The translations under genes were made by a program, and so were the position numbers. DNA of 32,906 nucleotides, taken from the IMG/VR virus record IMGVR_UViG_3300034198_030938, positions 1-32,906 of that record; one strand, given 5' to 3'. The DNA comes from a virus. The notes under the pieces are model-generated. The model was given only the letters and a program-made list of their open reading frames with translations, did not search any database and was not told where the DNA came from. Below, in pieces: positions 6,251 through 32,817 of this stretch (positions are counted from its first letter, which is position 1; every line of letters begins with the position of its first letter).

Positions 6251-6264
6251 CTTCGCGTTGCGGA

Positions 6265-6624
6265 TCAGTCGTCAGCGGCGAGCGCGTCGGCGGTGCTGGT
6301 GAGGATCCAGAGGACTTCGTCGATCGTGCGGCCGGGGGCGTCGTTCCATGCTTGCGGATCGGCGTCAAGGCGCGCGTCGAGGGCCTCCCACGCGTAGAAC
6401 GCTGCGGGTCGGCGGGCGACGGGAACGTCGGCAAGGCTGGCGTCGTTGCCTTCCGGGTCGACGAGCGCCGGGGGAAGTCCGGCGGCGATGAGGATTGCGC
6501 CGAGGACGTCGACTTCTCCGGTGATCTGATCGCGAGTGATGCCGCGCGTCCAGCCGGTCGTGCCGAGCACCGTGATCGCGTCGCGCAGGATGGTGGCGGA
6601 GGGCCCGAAGGCGCGTACCGTCAC
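6265..6624 (-). CDS. DUF6197-like protein
   Basis: 119 aa. The start is the GTG at 6624, because it overlaps the upstream stop as GTGA; longer in-frame starts run through the upstream gene. The protein has an N-terminal helix (ILRDAITVLGTTGWTRG), a central DxxGxVDVLGAILIAAG segment and a C-terminal block WNDAPGRTIDEVLWILTSTA. This pattern (GW-x-G, then GA, then WND.GRT..EV) is that of DUF6197, found in many actinobacteria and their phages and of unknown function. It is the second gene of a two-gene minus operon and ends 15 nt from the capsid terminator, which can also serve it from the other side. Confidence 0.8.
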   Translation of the reverse strand: MTVRAFGPSATILRDAITVLGTTGWTRGITRDQITGEVDVLGAILIAAGLPPALVDPEGNDASLADVPVARRPAAFYAWEALDARLDADPQAWNDAPGRTIDEVLWILTSTADALAADD

Positions 6625-8902: not shown

Positions 8903-9435
8903 CGGCATCGAGCGGGTTCTGGCGGTCAGTACGGGATCTCGCGAATCCAGAGGTCCTCGAAATCGGCACGCGTCGCTGGGGTGTCGAACCCACCCACCAT
9001 CGCGATGAGATTCCGCACGCGCAGCGGTACGTCATGGCCGACGTCACCGAAGGTGTTGATGTTGACGTCGTCTGCGATGCCCACGACCTTGCGCCGTTCC
9101 CGGACCGGTCGTTCGACGCGGTGCTGGCGTGCTCGGTGTGGGAGCACCTCGCGCGACCGTGGATCGCCGCCGAGGCCGTCGCGCGCGTCCTCAAGCCCGG
9201 TGGGCTCGTGTACGTCGCGACGCATCAGACCTTTCCTCTCCACGGGTATCCCCACGACTACTTCCGGTTCTCGACCGAGGCGCTCGCGATCCTGTTCGGA
9301 CCGCCGCTGTTCACGCCGTCGATCACCAACTATGTGTTCCCGGCGAAGATCACGCCGCCCTCCGGGCAGGGCATCGTGTGGAATGCGGCTGCCCCCGCAT
9401 ACCTCAACGTGGAGATCCTCGCCGTCCGCAACTAG
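8899..9435 (+). CDS. Class I SAM-dependent methyltransferase
   Basis: 178 aa from ATG 8899, overlapping the upstream stop as ATGA. Motif I is LEIGT at about residues 20-24; the acidic AdoMet-contact region is ADVTEG to VVCDAHDLAPFP; then come FDAVLACSVWEHLARP and a post-motif helix ending LKPGGLVYVAT. This is the Methyltransf_11 pattern typical of small-molecule or sugar methyltransferases rather than DNA methylases: no target-recognition domain and no DPPY/NPPF motif. A long C-terminal tail (HGYPHDYFRFSTEAL) resembles methyltransferases acting near glycans. It is the last gene of the cassette; its stop codon overlaps that of the convergent ribonucleotide reductase. Confidence 0.88.
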   Translation: MTASSGFWRSVRDLANPEVLEIGTRRWGVEPTHHRDEIPHAQRYVMADVTEGVDVDVVCDAHDLAPFPDRSFDAVLACSVWEHLARPWIAAEAVARVLKPGGLVYVATHQTFPLHGYPHDYFRFSTEALAILFGPPLFTPSITNYVFPAKITPPSGQGIVWNAAAPAYLNVEILAVRN

Positions 9436-14719: not shown

Positions 14720-14840
14720 GTTCACACCAAACAAACGAAACCACCCGATCCGGGGTAGTGTAACGGCAGCACCAGAGGCTTTGGTCCTCTCAGTCGGGGT
14801 TCGAATCCCTGCCCCGGAGCCACGTTCACACCAAACAAAC
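14720..14840. repeat. 17-bp direct repeats flanking tRNA-Gln
   Basis: GTTCACACCAAACAAAC occurs at 14720-14736 and again at 14824-14840, 104 bp apart, with the tRNA between them. The second copy starts 2 nt after the tRNA 3' CCA. Confidence 0.85.
14749..14822 (+). tRNA. tRNA-Gln (anticodon TTG)
   Basis: Seven-bp acceptor TCCGGGG/CCCCGGA, anticodon stem AGAGG/CCTCT with loop CTTTGGT (anticodon TTG), T-loop GTTCGAATC, discriminator G and an encoded 3' CCA (14820-14822). It reads CAA codons. It is the only one of the three tRNAs here with an encoded CCA. Confidence 0.93.
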
Positions 14841-16404: not shown

Positions 16405-17223
16405 TCAGCCCTTGCGTGGCTGGGCGATGACCGGGTTGGGACGTCGGGTGACGTTGTGGTCGATGAGGATGCGTCGGACCTTCTCTCGGTTGACGCCGTG
16501 CTTGTCGGCGACTTCTCGGAGGGTGAGGCCCTTCTTGTAGTCGGTGACGATGCGCTGCTCGAGGAGCGACCGCTTGGGGTGGCTCATCCGTCGGGTGTAG
16601 CCCGCCTGCTTGACGATGTTGTAGACGGTGGCGTCACCGATGCCGTATCGCTCGGCGATGGTGTTGGCGGTCTCGCCGTTGGCGTACGCCTCGAGGATCG
16701 CTGCGTTGCGAGTGGCGATGGCGGTGGCTCGGGCAGGGGAGGGGCCGGACCCCTTTGCCCGTCGCTCGATGCCGTTGGCGACGAGGACCTGTCGGACCTG
16801 TGTCGGGTGCATCCCGTACTTGGTGCCGACCTCCTTGAGGGAGAGGCCGGACTGGTACGCCTCGCAGACGGCGTTGATCCGTCGGGTCGAGCGGGCACGA
16901 GGGGTGCGCCCCTTGCTGGTGTTCGTCGAGTCGGTCGCCTTGGCAGGACGGGTCACCTTGGTGGAGGCGGACTCGAACTGGAACACGACGTGGGTACGTC
17001 GGGTGGGGCCGCTGCCCTCGACGATGACCTCGGAGCGGACGGCGAGGCCGTTGCGCCGGGCGTGGCTGTGGAGGGTGGTGCGGAACGACTCAGCGGGGGT
17101 GGCGAAGTCCTTGCCGGACGTTGCCTTCCACGTGCGTCCGTCGGTCCACTCGTCCCACGGGTAGAGGCGCTTGCGGTGGGAGCCGACGGTACGGAACTTG
17201 TATGCGGTGAGGACTCGAGCCAT
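16405..17223 (-). CDS. Regulator with a WxxW-DG domain and three tandem HTH modules
   Basis: 272 aa from ATG 17223; a longer frame to 17346 reads through the promoter and lacks a ribosome site. Residues 18-84 are the domain shared with the 85-aa neighbour (PWDEWTDGRTWK, GKDF, FQF). Then come three HTH units: 117-156 (AYQSGLSLKEVGTKYGMHP), 174-212 (AYANGETANTIAERYGIGD) and 222-262 (DYKKGLTLREVADKHGVNR). Each has the resolvase/sigma-r4-like layout (Y..G.t..eia..yg......v..il). Basic linkers join them. Three linked HTHs suggest binding to an extended or repeated site. Its own promoter contains a palindrome between -35 and -10, so autorepression is plausible. Confidence 0.8.
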   Translation of the reverse strand: MARVLTAYKFRTVGSHRKRLYPWDEWTDGRTWKATSGKDFATPAESFRTTLHSHARRNGLAVRSEVIVEGSGPTRRTHVVFQFESASTKVTRPAKATDSTNTSKGRTPRARSTRRINAVCEAYQSGLSLKEVGTKYGMHPTQVRQVLVANGIERRAKGSGPSPARATAIATRNAAILEAYANGETANTIAERYGIGDATVYNIVKQAGYTRRMSHPKRSLLEQRIVTDYKKGLTLREVADKHGVNREKVRRILIDHNVTRRPNPVIAQPRKG

Positions 17224-17293: not shown

Positions 17294-17322
17294 ACTTTAC
17301 AGGTGCTGGTCACCTGCGTCAA
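17294..17322 (-). promoter_or_regulatory. Promoter of the triple-HTH gene with palindromic operator
   Basis: Minus-strand TTGACG (17322-17317), 17-nt spacer, TAAAGT (17299-17294). The spacer is itself a perfect palindrome, CAGGTG-N5-CACCTG (17300-17316), exactly filling it. A repressor dimer there would block polymerase. The leader to ATG 17223 is about 64 nt. Confidence 0.8.
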
Positions 17323-20780: not shown

Positions 20781-20809
20781 ACAATAACACGCCTAGTATG
20801 GCTCGTCAA
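20781..20809 (-). promoter_or_regulatory. Strong promoter of the 20.7-17.4 kb minus operon
   Basis: TTGACG (20809-20804), 17-nt spacer, TATTGT (20786-20781). The leader holds CTACTAGC (20758-20751) just before the ribosome site. Confidence 0.82.
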
Positions 20810-23076: not shown

Positions 23077-23093
23077 TACTCGACAACAGGTAG

Positions 23094-23166
23094 TGCGCCC
23101 AGCAGGATTCGAACCTGCAACCTTGAGATTAAAAGTCTCCTACTCTGCCAGTTGAGTTATGGGCGC
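23094..23166 (-). tRNA. tRNA-Lys (anticodon TTT)
   Basis: Acceptor GCGCCCA/TGGGCGC with discriminator A, anticodon loop CTTTTAA (TTT), T-arm GCAGG-TTCGAAT-CCTGC. The lowest pair of the anticodon stem is a G:A mismatch. CCA is not encoded. It follows the DUF932 operon in the same direction. Confidence 0.92.
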
Positions 23167-24541: not shown

Positions 24542-24577
24542 TCGGTTTACTCTAACCGAAGTGAGGTGAGGTGTCAA
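24542..24577 (-). promoter_or_regulatory. DUF932 promoter with operator on the -10
   Basis: TTGACA (24577-24572), 17-nt spacer, TAGAGT (24554-24549). TCGGTT-N6-AACCGA (24542-24559) is a perfect palindrome covering the -10. Confidence 0.82.
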
Positions 24578-25874: not shown

Positions 25875-25903
25875 ATGTTAGCAGCGTGATCCGGTTGAGT
25901 CAA
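25875..25903 (-). promoter_or_regulatory. Promoter of the 393-aa gene
   Basis: TTGACT (25903-25898), 17-nt spacer, TAACAT (25880-25875). CTACTAGC (25866-25859) stands at the start of the leader. Confidence 0.82.
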
Positions 25904-25922
25904 GTCTTTCGTTGATTCTTTG

Positions 25923-26005
25923 TGCGGGCGGAGGGAGTCGAACCCTCACGACCTTCCGGCCAACGGTGTTTGAGACCGTCGCGTCTGCCATTCCGCCACA
26001 CCCGC
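25923..26005 (-). tRNA. tRNA-Leu (anticodon CAA)
   Basis: 83 nt. Acceptor GCGGGTG/CGCCCGC (one T:G pair), discriminator A, anticodon stem ACGGT/ACCGT with loop CTCAAAC, long variable arm GGCCGGAAGGTC and T-arm GAGGG-TTCGACT-CCCTC. It reads TTG codons. CCA is not encoded. Confidence 0.93.
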
Positions 26006-26036: not shown

Positions 26037-28106
26037 GTGACCATTCCCCGAGTCCCTCTACGCATCGAAGCGTATGACCCCGACGCCAAGGACGGCGATG
26101 GCGACGGCATCGTTCAAGACGGGACTGCGTGGGAGCGGCCCGTTGCTACTCGCATCCTCGACGAACTCGGTCGAGAGATCGCTCGAGGCCACACGAGCGC
26201 ATTTCGCCCCAAGAACCTGCGTTACGTCGACAAACACGGCAAAGACGTCAACTACACGCCGAAGCACGCCTCGCCGGAACCTCCTTCCACGACAAGTCGG
26301 ACTGCGCTGGAGCGCCTCGGCCACTCGTCCCTCGGACGTCGCAGCCCATCGATTGGTTCGAAACGACCCGGTCTCAGCGATCTGGGCCACGCCAGCATCA
26401 TTGACCGGCACGATCCGCCGAAGCCGCCGAGCCCCGGGAAGATCCCGAAGATCACCGAGTCCACTTCCTCGAGGAAGAAGGTGACCGCAGCGTTCTCCGG
26501 CGAGGACGGAGCGCTCGAGATCCTTCGTCAGCATTGGGCAGAACTCGTGGGACTCGAGCAGAACATTGCTGCGATGGATGGTCCGAACACGTTTCTAAAG
26601 GGAGAAGGCGACAAAGTCGCCGAGCGCCTCGCCCAGATTCAGGGCGGCTTCGACGGACTGCCGGTACCCATCACGAGCGAGCAGGCTCGGGCGCTCGACG
26701 CCGCCGGGGCTGAGCGGATCTTCCGAGTGATCGATGACCCGGCGTTCGTCGAGGCGCTCCGCACGGGGCAACATCGAGCGGGCACGGGGATGTGGGGTTC
26801 GGGTATTTACACGAGTCCTGATGTGGACTGGATCCAAGACTTCAGCGTAGTGAAAATTCCAACAGGTAAAGACATTGGGAAGAACTACACGATGTTTTAT
26901 CTTGACCCGAACGCTCGAGTGATTGAGGTCAGTGAACTGCGAGCGTTGCAACGACAACTTAGTGCAGAGTTGATTGATGGCGTTCCAGAACTTGCTGCGA
27001 TCAAAGCGAAGTACGCCGACCGGAAGCCCCGCACCCCCGAGGAGCAAGCCGAGTTTCGCAAGTATCTTGTTGCGTCCCAGATGATCAACAACTACGGGCG
27101 ACTTGCTGCACTACTCGGGTACGACGCCATCGACGTACAACACGACCCGTCAGCACCAACTCGACTCAAGCGCGGTCTCGCTCGAGGAAACGAAGTTGTC
27201 GTCATCAACCGCACCGCCCTGCGACTTCCGCCGCAACCTTCCGACCTCGAGTGGCGAGAACTCGGTCGCATCGCACACGGTCCACGGCTCGCCGAACGAA
27301 CGGCGCGACTGGGCATCTCCCCCGGGGCTACCCACATCCCCGAGTTCGCCACTCCAGAACAAGTCGATGAACTAATCCTCAAGAACGGTCTTGCGTTCGT
27401 TGATCTCATCAACCCAGATCTCACCGCCAACGAAGCGTTCTTCGGGCAACCCGACGAAGCACTTCGCGCCATCGTCCACATGCAAGGATTCGATGCGCCG
27501 CCGGTTCCCGTCACCAAAGCCGAGGTCGCAGCGCTCGAGGAGGCCCGAGCCCCGGTGGTGTACCGGGCGCTCGACGAGGTCGAACACGTGCGCGACCTTC
27601 GGGAGGGGTACTACTGGCCCGGGACTGGGGTTCACGGGGCGGGGATTTACGTCGCTCCTGATGCGGATGTCGTCGGCGACTACACGACGGTCGAGTTGGA
27701 CTCACATCCAAATCCGGGGAAGCACTGGACGAAGTTCTACCTTGATCCAAACGCACGAGTCATCACGTTGGAACAGGTGCGAGCGGAAGCCGAGCGGTTG
27801 CGAGCGCAACACGCACCCAGACTGACGCTCATGCAGGAGCGGCGAGAGCAGTTCAGATCAGTGCGAGAACCAGATGTACCAGCATCCGATCTGGTTGATC
27901 CCACGAAGTTGTTCGATGATTACGGGCGAGTCGCAGCGTTGCTGGGGTACGACGCCATTCTCGTCGAGGGAGACAACCCCGAGTATGTCGTGCTGAACCG
28001 GAGTGCGCTGCGGCTGCCGCCCCAGCCGTCCCGGGCGGAGTGGCGTCGCATCGGTAAAGAGGCTCGAGCAGCAGCCAACGCCGGGGTTGACTCTGCTAAC
28101 AACTAG
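26037..28106 (+). CDS. Protein with two tandem ADP-ribosyltransferase-like domains
   Basis: 689 aa from GTG 26037. Residues 13-33 hold YDPDAKDGDGDGIVQDGTAW, a calcium-loop-like motif frequent in actinophage proteins. Residues 50-150 look disordered. Then two copies of one domain follow, about 205-412 and 485-672. Each has an early Arg (IFRVID R230; VYRALD R510), a G-rich turn with GxGIY (GTGMWGSGIYTS; GTGVHGAGIYVA), FYLDPNARVI, YGRLAALLGYDA and a closing VVxINRTALRLPPQP. Arg followed by GxGIY is the NAD-binding pattern of ADP-ribosyltransferases and related folds. A clear catalytic Glu or R-S-E triad was not identified, so activity is unproven. It could be a host-directed effector delivered or expressed by the phage. 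The internal duplication is clear. Confidence 0.78.
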   Translation: MTIPRVPLRIEAYDPDAKDGDGDGIVQDGTAWERPVATRILDELGREIARGHTSAFRPKNLRYVDKHGKDVNYTPKHASPEPPSTTSRTALERLGHSSLGRRSPSIGSKRPGLSDLGHASIIDRHDPPKPPSPGKIPKITESTSSRKKVTAAFSGEDGALEILRQHWAELVGLEQNIAAMDGPNTFLKGEGDKVAERLAQIQGGFDGLPVPITSEQARALDAAGAERIFRVIDDPAFVEALRTGQHRAGTGMWGSGIYTSPDVDWIQDFSVVKIPTGKDIGKNYTMFYLDPNARVIEVSELRALQRQLSAELIDGVPELAAIKAKYADRKPRTPEEQAEFRKYLVASQMINNYGRLAALLGYDAIDVQHDPSAPTRLKRGLARGNEVVVINRTALRLPPQPSDLEWRELGRIAHGPRLAERTARLGISPGATHIPEFATPEQVDELILKNGLAFVDLINPDLTANEAFFGQPDEALRAIVHMQGFDAPPVPVTKAEVAALEEARAPVVYRALDEVEHVRDLREGYYWPGTGVHGAGIYVAPDADVVGDYTTVELDSHPNPGKHWTKFYLDPNARVITLEQVRAEAERLRAQHAPRLTLMQERREQFRSVREPDVPASDLVDPTKLFDDYGRVAALLGYDAILVEGDNPEYVVLNRSALRLPPQPSRAEWRRIGKEARAAANAGVDSANN

Positions 28107-28115
28107 CGATAGGAT
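28087..28115 (+). promoter_or_regulatory. Leaderless promoter of the 94-aa gene
   Basis: TTGACT (28087-28092), 17-nt spacer, TAGGAT (28110-28115), 6 nt, then ATG 28122. The -35 lies inside the end of the ART-like gene. Confidence 0.82.
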
Positions 28116-28121
28116 ACGACG

Positions 28122-28406
28122 ATGATGAATCGCCACCAGTTCTCTCGAGCCTCCTACGCCGCCGTGATGGTGTTGCTGAATGGCGGGATCACCCCCGAGG
28201 AGCGGTACAAAGTGGAAGATGCCCTCGCTGCCGCCGACTCGCTCGACGACTTGCCGGAGGACATCCGCAAGAAGGTGGAACCGACGTTCCGAAAGTTGGG
28301 TCTCCTCGACGAACCGGCGAAGAACCCGGACCCGCTCCCGGCGGGACAGGGCGAGGACCCCACCCTCACTGCTGACGAAGTGGCTGCTCTCGAGGGACCG
28401 CGCTGA
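28122..28406 (+). CDS. Hypothetical acidic protein, 94 aa
   Basis: ATG 28122 (a second ATG follows at once). It has a helical, charged sequence: YAAVMVLLNGGITPEERYKV, then DSLDDLPEDIRKKVEPTFRK, and a flexible PAKNPDPLPAGQGEDPTL end. No family recognised. The start lies 6 nt after a good -10, so the mRNA is leaderless. Its 3' end overlaps the convergent minus gene by 41 nt. Confidence 0.7.
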   Translation: MMNRHQFSRASYAAVMVLLNGGITPEERYKVEDALAAADSLDDLPEDIRKKVEPTFRKLGLLDEPAKNPDPLPAGQGEDPTLTADEVAALEGPR

Positions 28407-28700: not shown

Positions 28701-28786
28701 CAGCGGGCCACCTTCTGGCCGAGCCACACGATGAGGATCGCGAAGCCGAGGATGTACGTTCCGCTGAGGAACTCGATCATGGTCAT
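28700..28786 (-). CDS. 28-aa membrane peptide
   Basis: ATG 28786 (or 28780) to TGA at 28702-28700. It is a hydrophobic helix (FLSGTYILGFAILIVWLG) with the polar end QKVAR. A GCGAAAGCGAG stretch provides the ribosome site. Together with the next gene it gives two tiny membrane peptides in tandem under one CCGACCC-box promoter. Confidence 0.65.
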   Translation of the reverse strand: MTMIEFLSGTYILGFAILIVWLGQKVAR

Positions 28787-28812
28787 GGGTACTCGCTTTC
28801 GCTAGTGAATAC

Positions 28813-28829
28813 ATCAGGTTCTCCCTGAT
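28813..28829 (-). promoter_or_regulatory. Leader hairpin of the small membrane-peptide operon
   Basis: ATCAGG-N5-CCTGAT, a perfect 6-bp stem, lies just downstream of the promoter and about 27 nt before the start codon. Confidence 0.45.
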
Positions 28830-28836
28830 ACAAACA

Positions 28837-28865
28837 ATACTACACGATGGGTCGGACAACGTCAA
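28837..28865 (-). promoter_or_regulatory. CCGACCC-box promoter
   Basis: TTGACG (28865-28860), spacer TTGTCCGACCCATCGTG (17 nt), TAGTAT (28842-28837). Confidence 0.85.
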
Positions 28866-28902
28866 GCATTCTCGTCCACCCACCCGATCACAGGTGCCGC
28901 CG

Positions 28903-30867
28903 ATGCCTCCCTTCCGACAGACCGGAGCGAAACAACTCCTCCTCGCCGACGATCACCTCGTCGTTGACTCCCCCTACGATGCTGCCCAAGTCGCCGACAC
29001 GAAGCGCATCCCCGGGGCTCGCTGGGACAAGGTCGCTCGAGTCTGGCGCATTCCGATGACTTCACTCGACGCCGCCCGTCGGTTCGCCGACAAGTGGGAC
29101 CTCTGGGTAGATCCCGCCGTCCTCACCTTCACCCTCCCGAACGAAGCCCAACCGTTCGTCCACGGGGGCGAAGTGCGGCTCGCCGACAACGAACTCGAGA
29201 TCTCCTTCCCCTACGACCAACTCATGGCCGAGTCCGCTCGCCGCCTCCCCCTCACCGAGTGGAACGCCGAAACCAAGACGTTCCGAGCGCCGCTGTCCGT
29301 CATCCGAGAAGTCACCGACTGGGCGGCCCGCTTCCGTGTGGACGTCCATCCCGATGTCGCTCGAGCCGCCGCCGACACACAGCAGGCCGCCGAGTCCCGC
29401 ATCGCAGCGAGTCGCGCAGAAGACGCCGACGTCGCCATCACGGGGCTCGTCGCCGAGTTGCGTCCGTTCCAACGGGCTGGTGTGGCGTATGCGCTGCACG
29501 CTCGACGTTGCTTCCTTGCTGACGACATGGGTCTCGGGAAAACGCTCATGTCGCTTGCCTCGCTGGAGGGTCTCGAGGAACGAGAACCCGGAAGTGGCTA
29601 CCCGGCAGTTGTGGTCTGCCCGGCCACCCTCACTCACAACTGGCGGGCGGAAGCAAACAGGTGGTTGCCGCATCGGACCGTACGGCTCGTGGAAGGACGG
29701 AAGCAGTTTCCCGCTAACGACGCCGACATCACGGTCGTTGGATGGGCGAACTTGTCGCACTGGGCTGACGAACTTGCTGGGTACTCCTCGTACATCTTCG
29801 ACGAGTCGCACTACGCGAAGACTCCGACGGCTGCTCGCACGAAGGCTGCGGTGAAGGTCGCCCGCCGAGCCCCGGGGGTGGTGCTGTGCCTCACCGGGAC
29901 CCCCGTGACGAACCGTCCGGCGGAGTACGCCAGCCAACTCCAGATCCTTGATCGCCTCGAGGACTTCGGTGGACGGTGGGCGTTCTACAAGAGGTACTGC
30001 AACGCGTTCCGAGATCGGTTCGGACAGTGGCACTTCGAGGGCGCGTCTCATCTGGATGAACTCAACGATCGGCTGCGTGCGACGTGTTACATCCGTCGGA
30101 CGAAAGATCAGGTGATGAGCGAGTTGCCTCCGGTGCAGCACAACCCGGTGGTGGTCGCTGGTTCGACGAAGGCGATGCGGGAATACCAAAAGGCGGAGCA
30201 AGACATCGTCGAGTACATGGTGGCTCGAGCGGCGGCCATCGCCGAGGAACTTGGCACGTCCCGTCGGAAGGCGGAGGTGGTGGCTCGGTTCCGGGTAGAG
30301 GCGGCGCAGCACATCGTGCGGATGGGCGTGTTGCGGAAGATCGCTGCGTCGGCAAAGTTGGAGGCACTCGACGAGTGGGTGAAGTCGCACCTCGAAGCGG
30401 AACGCAAGGTGGTGTTGGCGGCGCATCACCGGGATGTGGTGGATGCGTTGGCTGCGAAGTACGGGGGACTGAAGATTCAGGGAGGCCAGCCGATCTCGGA
30501 GATCGAGGAGGCGAAGGCGCGATTCCAGAACGAATCAGTTGCTTCAGCCCCAGCGATCGTTCTTTCGATTCAGGCAGCGAAGACTGGGCACACGTTGACG
30601 GCAGCCCAGAACATCTGCTTCCTCGAGTTGCCGTGGACTCCAGCGGACTTGGACCAGACGACGTCCCGTCTTCACCGCATCGGACAGCGGGGCTCGGTGG
30701 AGGCGACGTATCTGCTGGCGGAGAACACCATCGACGAGACAGTGTTTGATCTCATCGGGCTGAAGCGGAGCATCGTTGAGGTCGCCATCGAGGGGTCGGG
30801 TGAGTCCGAGAGTGGCGGGTCTATCGCTGATTTGGTGGAGCGGTTTGCTCGACTGGCGTTGGGGTGA
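28903..30867 (+). CDS. SNF2-family helicase with HARP-like N-terminus
   Basis: 654 aa from ATG 28903, preceded by AGGTG at about 6 nt; GTG 28894 is an alternative. The N-terminal ~145 residues hold two HARP-like repeats: SPYDAAQVADTKRIPGARWD and SFPYDQLMAESARRLPLTEW, each followed by a W/F-R-x-P strand. The ATPase core has ADDMGLGKT (Walker A), VVVCPATLTHNWR, DESH (Walker B), LTGTPVTNR, and in the second lobe VLAAHHRDV, IVLSIQAAKTGHTLT and QTTSRLHRIGQ (motif VI). HARP-plus-SNF2 is the layout of SMARCAL1-type annealing helicases, which rewind ssDNA/dsDNA junctions and remodel forks. It should act in phage replication, recombination or repair. No nuclease domain is fused. Confidence 0.93.
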   Translation: MPPFRQTGAKQLLLADDHLVVDSPYDAAQVADTKRIPGARWDKVARVWRIPMTSLDAARRFADKWDLWVDPAVLTFTLPNEAQPFVHGGEVRLADNELEISFPYDQLMAESARRLPLTEWNAETKTFRAPLSVIREVTDWAARFRVDVHPDVARAAADTQQAAESRIAASRAEDADVAITGLVAELRPFQRAGVAYALHARRCFLADDMGLGKTLMSLASLEGLEEREPGSGYPAVVVCPATLTHNWRAEANRWLPHRTVRLVEGRKQFPANDADITVVGWANLSHWADELAGYSSYIFDESHYAKTPTAARTKAAVKVARRAPGVVLCLTGTPVTNRPAEYASQLQILDRLEDFGGRWAFYKRYCNAFRDRFGQWHFEGASHLDELNDRLRATCYIRRTKDQVMSELPPVQHNPVVVAGSTKAMREYQKAEQDIVEYMVARAAAIAEELGTSRRKAEVVARFRVEAAQHIVRMGVLRKIAASAKLEALDEWVKSHLEAERKVVLAAHHRDVVDALAAKYGGLKIQGGQPISEIEEAKARFQNESVASAPAIVLSIQAAKTGHTLTAAQNICFLELPWTPADLDQTTSRLHRIGQRGSVEATYLLAENTIDETVFDLIGLKRSIVEVAIEGSGESESGGSIADLVERFARLALG

Positions 30868-30964
30868 GGTGGTCTTTGCGTAGTTGTCGGAGAAGTTCTG
30901 CGATGACGGCGGGTACGAGGGAGTGAAGGAGTTCCTCGAGGAGCAGGTCGGCGATGTGGTTCAT
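30821..30964 (-). CDS. Possible small helical protein, 47 aa
   Basis: ATG 30964, no strong ribosome site. The first 30 residues are a hydrophobic amphipathic helix (IADLLLEELLHSLVPAVIAE) then QLRKDH. Its last third is antisense to the helicase gene end. It could be chance. Between 30868 and 31054 nothing else is seen. Confidence 0.35.
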   Translation of the reverse strand: MNHIADLLLEELLHSLVPAVIAELLRQLRKDHLTPTPVEQTAPPNQR

Positions 30965-31042
30965 GTCTTCATGGTGCGTGTGAGGGGTGTGGCGGCAACC
31001 GGCGAGCCCCGGGGATTGTTCGTTTGAGCGGGGCGGGGTGCG

Positions 31043-31048
31043 TACTCT
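31043..31048 (+). promoter_or_regulatory. Leaderless -10 of the 56-aa zinc-knuckle gene
   Basis: TACTCT, then 6 nt, then GTG 31055. No good -35 is seen 17 nt upstream. Confidence 0.45.
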
Positions 31049-31054
31049 GGTGGG

Positions 31055-31225
31055 GTGGGGACTGCTGGGTACAGGTACTTGCCGATGAAGTGTGATGTGT
31101 GTGAGGTGTTGTGGGAGGGTGAGGAGCCGTGTTTTTTGTGCGGGGAGTCGGGCCGGTTGTTGTCGTTTCGGCGAGCAGCACCTGAGGTGACAGTTAGTGA
31201 CGAGGGTCACACAAGTAATACTTGA
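31055..31225 (+). CDS. 56-aa zinc-ribbon peptide
   Basis: GTG 31055 to TGA 31225; an internal ATG is at 31085. The peptide starts VGTAGYRYLPMKCDVCEVLW and continues with CFLC about 12 residues later, making CDVC...CFLC, a tight four-Cys ribbon, with a polar tail. The stop overlaps the -35 (TTGACG) of the next promoter. Small Cys4 peptides like this are common in actinophages. I know no function. Confidence 0.7.
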   Translation: MGTAGYRYLPMKCDVCEVLWEGEEPCFLCGESGRLLSFRRAAPEVTVSDEGHTSNT

Positions 31226-31250
31226 CGGCGCCCGACCCTTGCGCTATGAT
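31222..31250 (+). promoter_or_regulatory. Strong promoter, weak CCGACCC-box member
   Basis: TTGACG (31222-31227), spacer GCGCCCGACCCTTGCGC (17 nt), TATGAT (31245-31250). Confidence 0.88.
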
Positions 31251-31288
31251 AAGTGAGTAAGGTAAATAGTAGATAGTTAGGAGCAGTA

Positions 31289-31387
31289 ATGGAAGTCATC
31301 CGGATCGCAGCAGCGGCCGGGATCTTGATCGCAGGGCTTGCCCCCCTCGGGATCCTGATGTGGTTGCTCTACGGCGACGGTCGCTGA
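31289..31387 (+). CDS. 32-aa membrane peptide
   Basis: ATG 31289, with AGGAG 6 nt upstream. A near-continuous hydrophobic helix (IRIAAAAGILIAGLAPLGIL) then MWLLYGDGR. The strong consensus promoter 40 nt upstream and the strong terminator 30 nt downstream make it a complete monocistronic unit of about 200 nt. That arrangement implies a real gene that is expressed highly, despite its size. Role unknown; membrane modulation or exclusion is possible. Confidence 0.75.
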   Translation: MEVIRIAAAAGILIAGLAPLGILMWLLYGDGR

Positions 31388-31417
31388 GCAACCCACCGCC
31401 AACCTTCCCCCCAACCA

Positions 31418-31449
31418 GAAAGAGCGTCGCAGCGATGCGGCGCTCTTTC
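31418..31449 (+). terminator. Strong terminator of the 32-aa gene
   Basis: GAAAGAGCG/CGCTCTTTC, 9 bp, with an inner CGCA-GCGA-TGCG stem. No T tract on the plus strand beyond the stem's own CTTTC. Confidence 0.8.
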
Positions 31450-31774
31450 GCGTTCCCAGCAACTTCTCCTCGAGCGCTCACATCACGAGATCTCACCGAC
31501 TCGGAGCCCCGCACAAAGAAGGAGCCCGCTCGAGCGGCGGGCTCTGGGGAGCCCCGGGTTCGGAGGTGCGCCCCTGCGGGGCCGCCGCCCGACGGCGCTG
31601 CGAGTGGCGGAGGAGTTGCTGCGGTCGCTCGACTGAAGGGCTGAAGCAGTTGGGGACTGGGCGGAATAGTTGTTCGATAACGATTCGCAGATTCTATGGA
31701 GACTCGTAATTCCTATCGTATTGGTAGAGAAAGTATCGGAATCTCTATCGCATTAGTCGGAATAAGTGGAGTAT
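31450..31774. other. Gene-free stretch with a second hairpin and an AT-rich repeat patch
   Basis: No credible gene. At 31522-31544 GAGCCCGC/GCGGGCTC forms an 8-bp stem. From about 31660 to 31770 base composition drops well below the surroundings. CTATCGTATTGGT (31713-31725) and CTATCGCATTAGT (31745-31757) are near-identical, 32 bp apart, and TATCG recurs at 31734. Confidence 0.6.
31522..31544. terminator. GC-rich hairpin
   Basis: GAGCCCGC-TCGAGCG-GCGGGCTC, 8-bp stem, 7-nt loop. It could insulate the region upstream of 31.8 kb from read-through. Confidence 0.55.
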
Positions 31775-31806
31775 GCGAACAAGCGTTCGGGCGAACACGT
31801 GTTCGT
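31775..31806. promoter_or_regulatory. Two tandem SOS-box-like palindromes
   Basis: CGAACAAGCGTTCG (31776-31789) and CGAACACGTGTTCG (31792-31805) both fit CGAAC-N4-GTTCG, the core of the actinobacterial LexA box. Centres are 16 bp apart. The second is a perfect 14-bp palindrome and touches the CCGACCC-box promoter. Confidence 0.75.
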
Positions 31807-31827
31807 GTCCGACCCCCCTAGTAAAGT
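31805..31827 (+). promoter_or_regulatory. CCGACCC-box promoter, first of a tandem pair
   Basis: GTGTCCGACCCCCCTAG (31805-31821) then TAAAGT (31822-31827), with the box in the same phase as in the other members. The -35 position (GTGTTC) is not consensus. Confidence 0.65.
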
Positions 31828-31846
31828 CATCATCAGTAGGGAGGTA

Positions 31847-31888
31847 ATGACGCAACCGTGTCCGACCCCCTTGCTACAGTATCCATAG
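31847..31888 (+). CDS. Possible 13-aa leader peptide
   Basis: ATG 31847 directly behind GGGAGGTA, then TQPCPTPLLQYP and TAG at 31886. The short peptide spans the whole second CCGACCC promoter. The gap between GGAGG and ATG is only 2 nt, shorter than usual. It may serve as an upstream ORF that couples or attenuates expression of the next gene. Confidence 0.4.
   Translation: MTQPCPTPLLQYP
31858..31880 (+). promoter_or_regulatory. CCGACCC-box promoter, second of the pair
   Basis: GTGTCCGACCCCCTTGC (31858-31874) then TACAGT (31875-31880), preceded by TGC (extended -10). The two boxes are 53 bp apart. Confidence 0.68.
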
Positions 31889-31914
31889 TGCCTAGTAGAT
31901 AAGGAGACAACAAG

Positions 31915-32094
31915 GTGCTTTACGGATGGAAGGACCAGTCGCCGACCGACTCGCTCGACGAGTCGGAGCGGCACGGCGAGGCCGTCGTAATCCCCGACAA
32001 CCGCTTCGACGTCGAAGTCGTGGACTTCGCCGACTACGAGTGGGGCTTCGCCACCGTCGCCCCCCGAACCGATAACTGGAGGGACGACCAGTGA
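31915..32094 (+). CDS. Hypothetical acidic protein, 59 aa
   Basis: GTG 31915, with AAGGAG about 8 nt upstream. It starts VLYGWKDQSPTDSLDESERH and has a hydrophobic/acidic middle (VVIPDNRFDVEVVDFADYEW). It is strongly acidic, as are DNA-mimic and anti-repressor proteins, but I cannot assign it. GTGA overlap with the next gene. Confidence 0.72.
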   Translation: MLYGWKDQSPTDSLDESERHGEAVVIPDNRFDVEVVDFADYEWGFATVAPRTDNWRDDQ

Positions 32095-32333
32095 GACTCG
32101 AACCGATCGCATACCAGTACGAGGCCGACCGGCACTGCCCGGCGTGCGCCGAAACCCGCTTCGGTCGCGGACCCCACGGCTTCATCGCCGAGCAGTCCGT
32201 GGACTTCGAGGGCAACCCCGTCGGCGTCATCGCACCGTGGGACGAGTGGGCCGACCCCGACTGGGAGCAACCCGCAGTCCTCGCGTGCGGAACGTGCCAC
32301 GGCATCATCGCCACGATGGACTTGACCCCCTGA
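32091..32333 (+). CDS. Zinc-ribbon protein, 80 aa
   Basis: GTG 32091 in a GTGA overlap with the previous stop. CPAC (residues 16-19) and CGTC near the C-terminus form a wide zinc ribbon. The centre (FIAEQSVDFEGNPVGVIAPW) is probably a beta insert. It ends 15 nt before a very strong hairpin. Confidence 0.76.
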   Translation: MRLEPIAYQYEADRHCPACAETRFGRGPHGFIAEQSVDFEGNPVGVIAPWDEWADPDWEQPAVLACGTCHGIIATMDLTP

Positions 32334-32348
32334 TCCTCCTCGGCTTCA

Positions 32349-32388
32349 GCGACGAGACCCCCGACCCCCCCGTCGGGGGTCTCGTCGC
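32349..32388 (+). terminator. 17-bp perfect hairpin
   Basis: GCGACGAGACCCCCGAC and GTCGGGGGTCTCGTCGC are exact arms around CCCCCC. No T tract; a typical actinobacterial stem terminator. Confidence 0.82.
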
Positions 32389-32421
32389 GTCCATCCTCAG
32401 AACCAGCAGCGTCAGCGCCGC

Positions 32422-32477
32422 AGCCCCGCCCGTGGGCACCTGCGCTGGCGCTGCCTACGATCGGGCCGGGGCTTTTT
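32422..32477 (+). terminator. Terminator with T tract
   Basis: AGCCCCGCCCG (32422-32432) pairs with CGGGCCGGGGCT (32462-32473), one bulge, then TTTTT. The loop holds a smaller stem. Confidence 0.75.
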
Positions 32478-32534
32478 GTGGCGTACGGCGGCGGGGGTTT
32501 CTGCGGCGGGGCCCCCGGCGGGAGGACGCGAAAA

Positions 32535-32561
32535 GCCCCCGAGGAACTTGTCCTCGAGGGC
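32535..32561. terminator. Bidirectional hairpin with A/T flanks
   Basis: GCCCCCGAGGA/TCCTCGAGGGC, 11 bp with one mismatch, with AAAA on the left and GTTTCT on the right. It can end the minus gene that starts at 32740 (T tract on that strand). Confidence 0.72.
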
Positions 32562-32584
32562 GTTTCTAGTTGGCGGGAGGAACT

Positions 32585-32740
32585 TCAGCCCTCCATCCGG
32601 TACCACGGGTACCGGCCGGTTCGCCATCCTTCCTCGTCGTTGAGCCGACGGAGCGCTCGCTCCATCATCTCCTTGGAGGGGTAGGCGTTGATCCATCCGT
32701 GCTCGCCGTGTTGGATCCGGTACTGCTTCATCGCAGCCAT
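32585..32740 (-). CDS. Basic protein, 51 aa
   Basis: ATG 32740, with GAAGGAGA 5 nt upstream, to TGA at 32587-32585. It begins MAAMKQYRIQHGEHGWINAY and continues PSKEMMERALRRLNDEEGWR, ending TGRYPWYRMEG. It is Trp/Tyr/Arg-rich, with no metal motif. The promoter with the CCGACCC box upstream and the T-flanked hairpin downstream make it a complete unit. Confidence 0.75.
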   Translation of the reverse strand: MAAMKQYRIQHGEHGWINAYPSKEMMERALRRLNDEEGWRTGRYPWYRMEG

Positions 32741-32764
32741 CGCTGTCTCCTTCGGTTGTCAAGG

Positions 32765-32780
32765 TTGGCTGTCCTGCCAA
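32765..32780 (-). promoter_or_regulatory. Leader hairpin of the 51-aa gene
   Basis: TTGGC-N6-GCCAA, 5-bp stem, lies 25 nt before the start codon and just downstream of the promoter, as in the 28.8 kb operon. Confidence 0.45.
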
Positions 32781-32787
32781 CAAAGAT

Positions 32788-32817
32788 ACTATAGCATAGG
32801 GGTCGGACAACAGTCAA
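32788..32817 (-). promoter_or_regulatory. CCGACCC-box promoter of the 51-aa gene
   Basis: TTGACT (32817-32812), 18-nt spacer GTTGTCCGACCCCTATGC, TATAGT (32793-32788). Confidence 0.85.

Follow-up and report, generated by a model that had tools for sequence, protein, structure and literature searches.

Promoters predicted throughout the small-gene region of an uncultured phage were shown to be of the sigma-70/sigma-A type in sequence, with a decayed −35 element and a rigidly placed asymmetric box, TGTCCGACCC. The 32,906-nucleotide stretch from which the analysis started (IMG/VR record IMGVR_UViG_3300034198_030938, referred to here as the window) corresponded, in reverse complement, to a portion of a 43.5-kb contig (G001) of metagenome 3300032218, with 99.99% identity; a window position equals 43468 minus the G001 position. 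The last 112 bases of G001 matched exactly the first bases of a 72-kb contig from the same metagenome (G003), and the two were joined in silico into a sequence of 115,470 bp (J). The second junction was not spanned, and the phage measures at least 115 kb. Genes were called throughout with a simple in-house caller. WhiB genes, which among 14 control genomes were found only in Corynebacterium glutamicum, together with a terminase and capsid similar to those of Gordonia phages, pointed to an actinobacterial host. When isolated phages were searched with the window DNA, the only similarities were weak ones, to Gordonia phages and to tRNAs.

Promoters with a fixed box

A first-pass annotation of the window had described five promoters sharing a box. 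All five were recovered, and in each of them CCGACCC ended exactly 6 nt 5′ of a TANNNT hexamer; four carried TGTCCGACCC and one carried CGCCCGACCC, as described. Both promoters at 31.8 kb lacked TTGAC, again in agreement with the annotation, and the other three had it, with spacers of 17, 17, and 18 bp:

28837–28865, minus strand: box promoter TTGACG-17-TAGTAT, TGTCCGACCC at 28849–28858; predicted targets, ORFs for small membrane proteins with starts at 28786 and about 28700 (minus strand)
31222–31250, plus strand: box promoter TTGACG-17-TATGAT, degenerate box CGCCCGACCC at 31229–31238; predicted target, 32-aa ORF 31289–31387
31776–31789 and 31792–31805: two SOS-box-like palindromes, CGAAC-N4-GTTCG, immediately 5′ of the first 31.8-kb box
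31806–31827, plus strand: box promoter without TTGAC, TGTCCGACCC followed by CCCTAG and TAAAGT; upstream partner in a tandem pair, 53 nt apart
31859–31880, plus strand: box promoter without TTGAC, TGTCCGACCC followed by CCTTGC (extended −10) and TACAGT; predicted targets, ORFs 31915–32094 and 32091–32333
32788–32817, minus strand: box promoter TTGACT-18-TATAGT, TGTCCGACCC at 32800–32809; predicted target, 51-aa ORF 32740–32585 (minus strand)

The exact 10-mer occurred at no other position of the window. Since the bare 7-mer CCGACCC is common there (22 matches versus a shuffle mean of 13.6), the evidence within the window lies in the 10-mer, its intergenic location, and its spacing.

A scan of the whole of J, as the annotation had proposed, found 33 exact copies of TGTCCGACCC locked to −10 boxes. 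TANNNT stood at offset 6 in 32 of the 33 (base-rate expectation, 0.07) and at offset 5 or 7 in none, and the remaining copy had TTTACT at the same offset. With three degenerate boxes included, J contained 36 box promoters, and the orientation of the box always agreed with that of the −10. All lay 5′ of genes in the small-gene region, between position 325 and 14.6 kb and between 107 and 114.4 kb of J; the intervening 92 kb, which holds structural and replication genes, contained none. The annotation would have been contradicted by copies spread at random inside genes or by transcription starts that were not about 7 nt past the −10. Instead, all 35 scored sites had a start codon at a distance of no more than 200 nt, a single one falling inside a called gene that is probably spurious, and in five box promoters an ATG lay exactly on the predicted +1 (leaderless, 7 nt past the −10), which independently supports the assigned start site.

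The promoter consensus comprised GA at −33/−32, T or A followed by TGTCCGACCC at −28 to −19, C-Y-n-TG-n, and TAcagT. GA was present in 27 of the 36 promoters and the extended −10 TG (−15/−14) in 31, but TTGAC in only 7 (six with a 17-bp and one with an 18-bp spacer), which supported the earlier suggestion that the box may replace the −35. By sequence, these sites have the makeup of sigma-A-type extended −10 promoters (TGnTANNNT with a start ∼7 nt 3′).

Mean pairwise identity among the box promoters was 98% in the box and 57% in the gap between box and −10. In the flanks it was 28% (−80 to −40) and 28.5% (+3 to +30), compared with 27% given by composition alone, indicating that the box is selected and not carried along. 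Tandem promoters 53 to 72 nt apart, of which there were several cases, would suit recently copied or recombined promoter cassettes, the box then being a relic that nothing reads. We give this explanation next to no credence, since identity beyond the motif stays at the background level and a distant phage (see below) keeps the box at equal spacing; as the sole explanation, cassette copying is already refuted.

J also contains ordinary promoters without the box, mostly GACTTGACN-17-TANNNT. The genes behind them include g36, g37, g39, g44, g53 (HTH repeats), the WhiB operon g136-137, and the AAA gene g154. Within the window, the observation that promoter-like sites elsewhere lack the box held for the following canonical promoters, among others:

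17294–17322, minus strand: TTGACG-17-TAAAGT, before a multi-HTH gene
20781–20809, minus strand: TTGACG-17-TATTGT
24549–24577, minus strand: TTGACA-17-TAGAGT, before ORF 24498–23500
25875–25903, minus strand: TTGACT-17-TAACAT, before ORF 25841–24660
28087–28115, plus strand: TTGACT-17-TAGGAT, with a leaderless ORF at 28122

The two promoter classes have the layout expected of a host-read early class and a second class dependent on a phage factor, and from this layout we infer their timing.

Boxes of related phages

Relatives were collected in two scans, one for an SNF2-type helicase, which gave 80 loci, and one in which a conserved HA-plus-HTH protein of the J_151 family was the query, which gave 284 relatives, the best 80 of which were taken. 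When the 80 helicase loci were screened for any 7-mer held at a constant distance from TANNNT, different boxes emerged in many of them, and a box was present in most of the best 80 of the 284 HA-HTH relatives. A different box, again rigidly spaced, occurred in 11 further large contigs and in numerous shorter loci. The counts below give sites at the fixed offset over sites within four positions of that offset:

G046: box TTTGGAAATTTGGTAT, 33/33
G047: box TTTGTAAATCTGATAT, 30/30
G048: box GGTATCTGTCCTG, 32/32
G050: box CTTGTAAGCCGTCCGTAGG, 20/20
G051: box TATAACCGA, 17/17
G027: box TAAGTCTGAACC, 19/20
G049: box TACACCCC, 26/34

The best log10 p in dinucleotide-shuffled genomes never went beyond −5.8, versus −22 to −67 in the real genomes tested. 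An independent 11.4-kb phage contig (G060), whose proteins are 37 to 76% identical to those of the window's phage, carried six promoters with TGTCCGACCC and two with the variant TGTCCGAC, all spaced as in J and some with CATACT as the −10. The loci L101 and L102 had TGTCTGACCC at the equivalent place, and ACACCCC-containing boxes (G049, G055, L178, and L184) also occupied an equivalent position. Box matches found in a single copy per contig look like chance, save those of the related TGTCTGACCC family in L101 and L102. No fixed-distance box was found in the Gordonia phages ScarletRaider and GMA6 or in the large relatives G035 and G036.

The most surprising result of the analysis was a concerted change of the box between G046 and G047. 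Most core proteins of these two phages are 95 to 99% identical, and their boxes, each present at about 30 promoters, differ at three positions. Such a shift across ∼30 promoters implies a putative reader that would have changed along with the box, or variants of that reader.

Proposed reading of the box

The rigid 6-bp distance, the loss of the −35, and the extended −10 together suggest a factor that touches both box and polymerase. With moderate confidence, we propose that these are sigma-A-type extended −10 promoters in which the role of the −35 is taken by a phage-encoded, asymmetric activator. A DNA-binding protein encoded by the phage would occupy the box, on one face of the spacer, and touch sigma-A or RNA polymerase. 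By drawing the host enzyme to about 36 promoters, it would act as a temporal switch. Expression would begin with the genes behind canonical TTGAC-17-TANNNT promoters that lack the box, and the seven promoters that combine TTGAC with the box, which could act without the activator, would be used in both phases. From one phage to the next, box and reader would coevolve rapidly.

The main rival explanation, which we consider unlikely although far from negligible, makes the box an operator: a repressor of the phage, for immunity or early shut-off, would bind it as a monomer inside the promoter and block polymerase. Diversifying immunity specificities would explain why phages whose core proteins are mostly 95 to 99% identical still have divergent boxes, and repressor/operator immunity systems typically have sites that change fast from one near relative to another (PMC6550527). 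Asymmetry, phage specificity, and a copy number above 20 are also a hallmark of the repressor sites of cluster A (PMC9283540, PMC6550527), and the SOS-like palindromes, which stand beside some boxes and, in several relatives, just 5′ of the HA-HTH gene, may suit an inducible state. However, a repressor needs neither one exact −10 spacing in all 36 sites nor the loss of the −35, and every site in the 115-kb phage is promoter bound, unlike stoperators. Nor did an integrase come to attention incidentally among the genes. Strict spacing to the −10 is demanded by contact with polymerase and not by a repressor site, which favors an activator.

Between the two readers considered by the first-pass annotation, a regulator reading one strand agrees with the orientation of the box, which tracks that of the −10, and a sigma-like specificity factor fits poorly with a box 6 bp from TANNNT. 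It is quite improbable that box and −10 together form the promoter of a sigma factor encoded by the phage: with region 2 placed on TANNNT, a box 6 bp away is too near for region 4, and the −10 resembles the housekeeping type. An alternative (ECF-like) sigma factor would have the box as a −35 at ∼16 to 17 bp from the −10, as opposed to the 6 bp found here. A 149-aa protein (L121:16073-16522) that adjoins a WhiB gene has weak similarity to sigma-70 regions 2 and 4 and could be a phage sigma factor, but it was matched in 0 of 15 relatives bearing the HA-HTH gene, a count to be read with the fact that all contigs are metagenomic fragments, in which the absence of a gene proves little. Also very doubtful is a reader supplied by the host, be it a transcription factor or a sigma partner. 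The −10 elements and starts do look host-like, but close phages differ in their boxes, which a shared host factor would forbid unless hosts vary in that factor.

For the putative activator, no candidate was established among the phage proteins examined. The HA-HTH protein (J_151) is conserved, and in the genomes inspected its gene and the upstream neighbors occupy opposite strands. This protein was rejected as the reader because its recognition helix is nearly invariant while boxes vary. Its divergence was weakly linked to box distance (partial Mantel r = 0.135, p = 0.0135), and a whole-genome comparison of the two was negative. Among isolated phages, the HA-HTH protein of this phage had no match and that of a relative had short HTH matches only, in Enterococcus phages; an AlphaFold model of J_151 (pLDDT 80.8) gave no PDB match at E ≤ 0.001. 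Scanning genome contigs for HA-HTH proteins yielded 17 loci, 16 of them in metagenome-assembled bins, with no clean named host among the 17. The wHTH J_125 family was discarded, its recognition helix being invariant in most relatives shown, as were the Cro-like and other HTH proteins of G046 and G047, whose recognition region is identical; WhiB was examined and not adopted. G046_136 stood out with 66% identity versus 97 to 100% for its neighbors and was likewise set aside, a DNA-binding motif not being evident by eye. Ranking protein families by correlation with box distance produced no clear winner. The multi-HTH gene mentioned above, with a BLAST relative in G036 only among the genomes compared at that stage, encodes a possible DNA-reading regulator:

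16405–17223, minus strand: multi-HTH protein (HTH_23, sigma-70 region-4-like)

We suggest tentatively, with slightly less than even expectation, that widespread uncultured large phages of actinobacteria have a promoter code rewritten for each phage, in which one fixed spacer box common to 15 to 36 promoters would change together with the phage's reader, and that the near relatives G046 and G047, for all their genomic similarity, would transcribe orthogonally. If true, these phages would be a natural source of many orthogonal promoter/activator pairs for actinobacteria. A regulon of ∼30 promoters appears to switch specificity between close relatives, making the evolution of regulatory specificity directly testable, and the box may offer a route to the early and middle genes of never-cultured metagenomic phages.

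Comparison with known phage promoter systems

No earlier description of these boxes was found in the openly accessible papers searched. Like the operators and stoperators of cluster A mycobacteriophages, the boxes are asymmetric, oriented with transcription, present in more than 20 copies, and subject to motif drift between related phages (PMC9283540, PMC6550527). The likeness to stoperators that had been drawn at the outset stands with regard to an asymmetric, phage-specific site but fails with regard to location: stoperators are mostly not promoter associated and have a silencing role (PMC6550527), whereas the boxes are always on promoters, every copy at one fixed place (TANNNT in 32 of 33 cases and TTTACT in the last). 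Two further kinds of motif resemble the boxes as many cluster-specific copies in small gaps before nonstructural genes: the repeated intergenic motifs, of unassigned function, in clusters EC, EG, and EI of Microbacterium phages (PMC7302621) and, in cluster O mycobacteriophages, palindromes of 17 bp with about a third of their sites in genes (PMC4351075). They differ from the boxes in sequence and, in EG and O, in being palindromic, and these reports do not appear to give a fixed spacing to a −10 (PMC7302621, PMC4351075).

Closer parallels are found among activated promoters. The nearly 60 middle promoters of T4 depend on sigma appropriation by AsiA and MotA, the activator acting as a monomer, and their MotA box, (a/t)(a/t)(a/t)TGCTTtA, is centered at −30, stands 12 ± 1 bp away from the −10, and tolerates changes (PMC2988021). 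They share with the promoters described here an asymmetric phage element in place of the −35, a retained host −10, and a frequent TGn (PMC2988021). In contrast, the present box is centered at about −23.5, lies exactly 6 bp from the −10 in 32 of the 33 exact copies, is nearly invariant within the phage, and does not match the MotA box in sequence. Neither the MotA nor the AsiA family was among the best 25 families listed for 99 phage proteins.

At the late promoters of phage P1, the Lpa site is positioned near −22. These 11 promoters have in common a 9-bp inverted repeat as activator site, and resemble those described here in that a phage activator site within the promoter is shared by a promoter family (PMC10695390). 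The present box is asymmetric outside a short GTC-C-GAC core and thus not such a repeat. Judged by position, sequence, and symmetry, the box system would be a member of neither the T4 MotA nor the P1 Lpa system, but by analogy it may work like them.

SOS-box-like palindromes and the putative box-promoter switch

SOS-box-like palindromes (CGAAC-N4-GTTCG) were located mostly in intergenic regions:

Window, 31776-31805
G060 (independent contig with the window's own box), at 9241, 9741 and 10765
Phage contigs G027, G028, G029, G033, G049 and G055, upstream of the HA-HTH gene (candidate regulator)

Some box promoters were directly adjoined by such palindromes, and in the six last-named contigs a palindrome closely preceded the start of the HA-HTH gene. 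These positions in the sequence suggest LexA-type control of the putative switch.

Other repeats and hairpins

In the window phage, a run of ACATCG hexamer repeats lies 5' of the HA-HTH gene (locus L122, ~6260-6320). A 13-bp element, AGAGTAGATAACT, recurs on either strand close to GTCTGTACC box promoters in G033 and G034 (e.g., locus L065). Loci L026, L027 and L195 carry a distinct repeat, CTATACC...TACGGTGCGTTACC, whose conservation extends to both sides of a TANNNT-like core; this repeat may be something other than a promoter. Two box promoters on the minus strand of the window each have a short hairpin immediately past their predicted start (coordinates approximate):

28805-28825, minus, ATCAGG-GAGAA-CCTGAT
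32760-32785, minus, GTTGGC-AGGACA-GCCAAC

Further genes

The window encodes three tRNAs:

14749-14822, plus, tRNA Gln
23093-23166, minus, tRNA Lys
25922-26005, minus, tRNA Leu

Between the near relatives G046 and G047, the 137-aa protein G046_136 (L261:5132-5545), which has no assigned fold, shares 66% identity with its counterpart G047_122, while the genes beside them are 97-100% identical. Beyond the window, the same phage carries a WhiB gene immediately 5' of a sigma-70-like gene (the pair at L121:15738-16522, plus), the latter encoding 149 aa with weak regions 2 and 4, and a second WhiB gene (L121:17594-17845).
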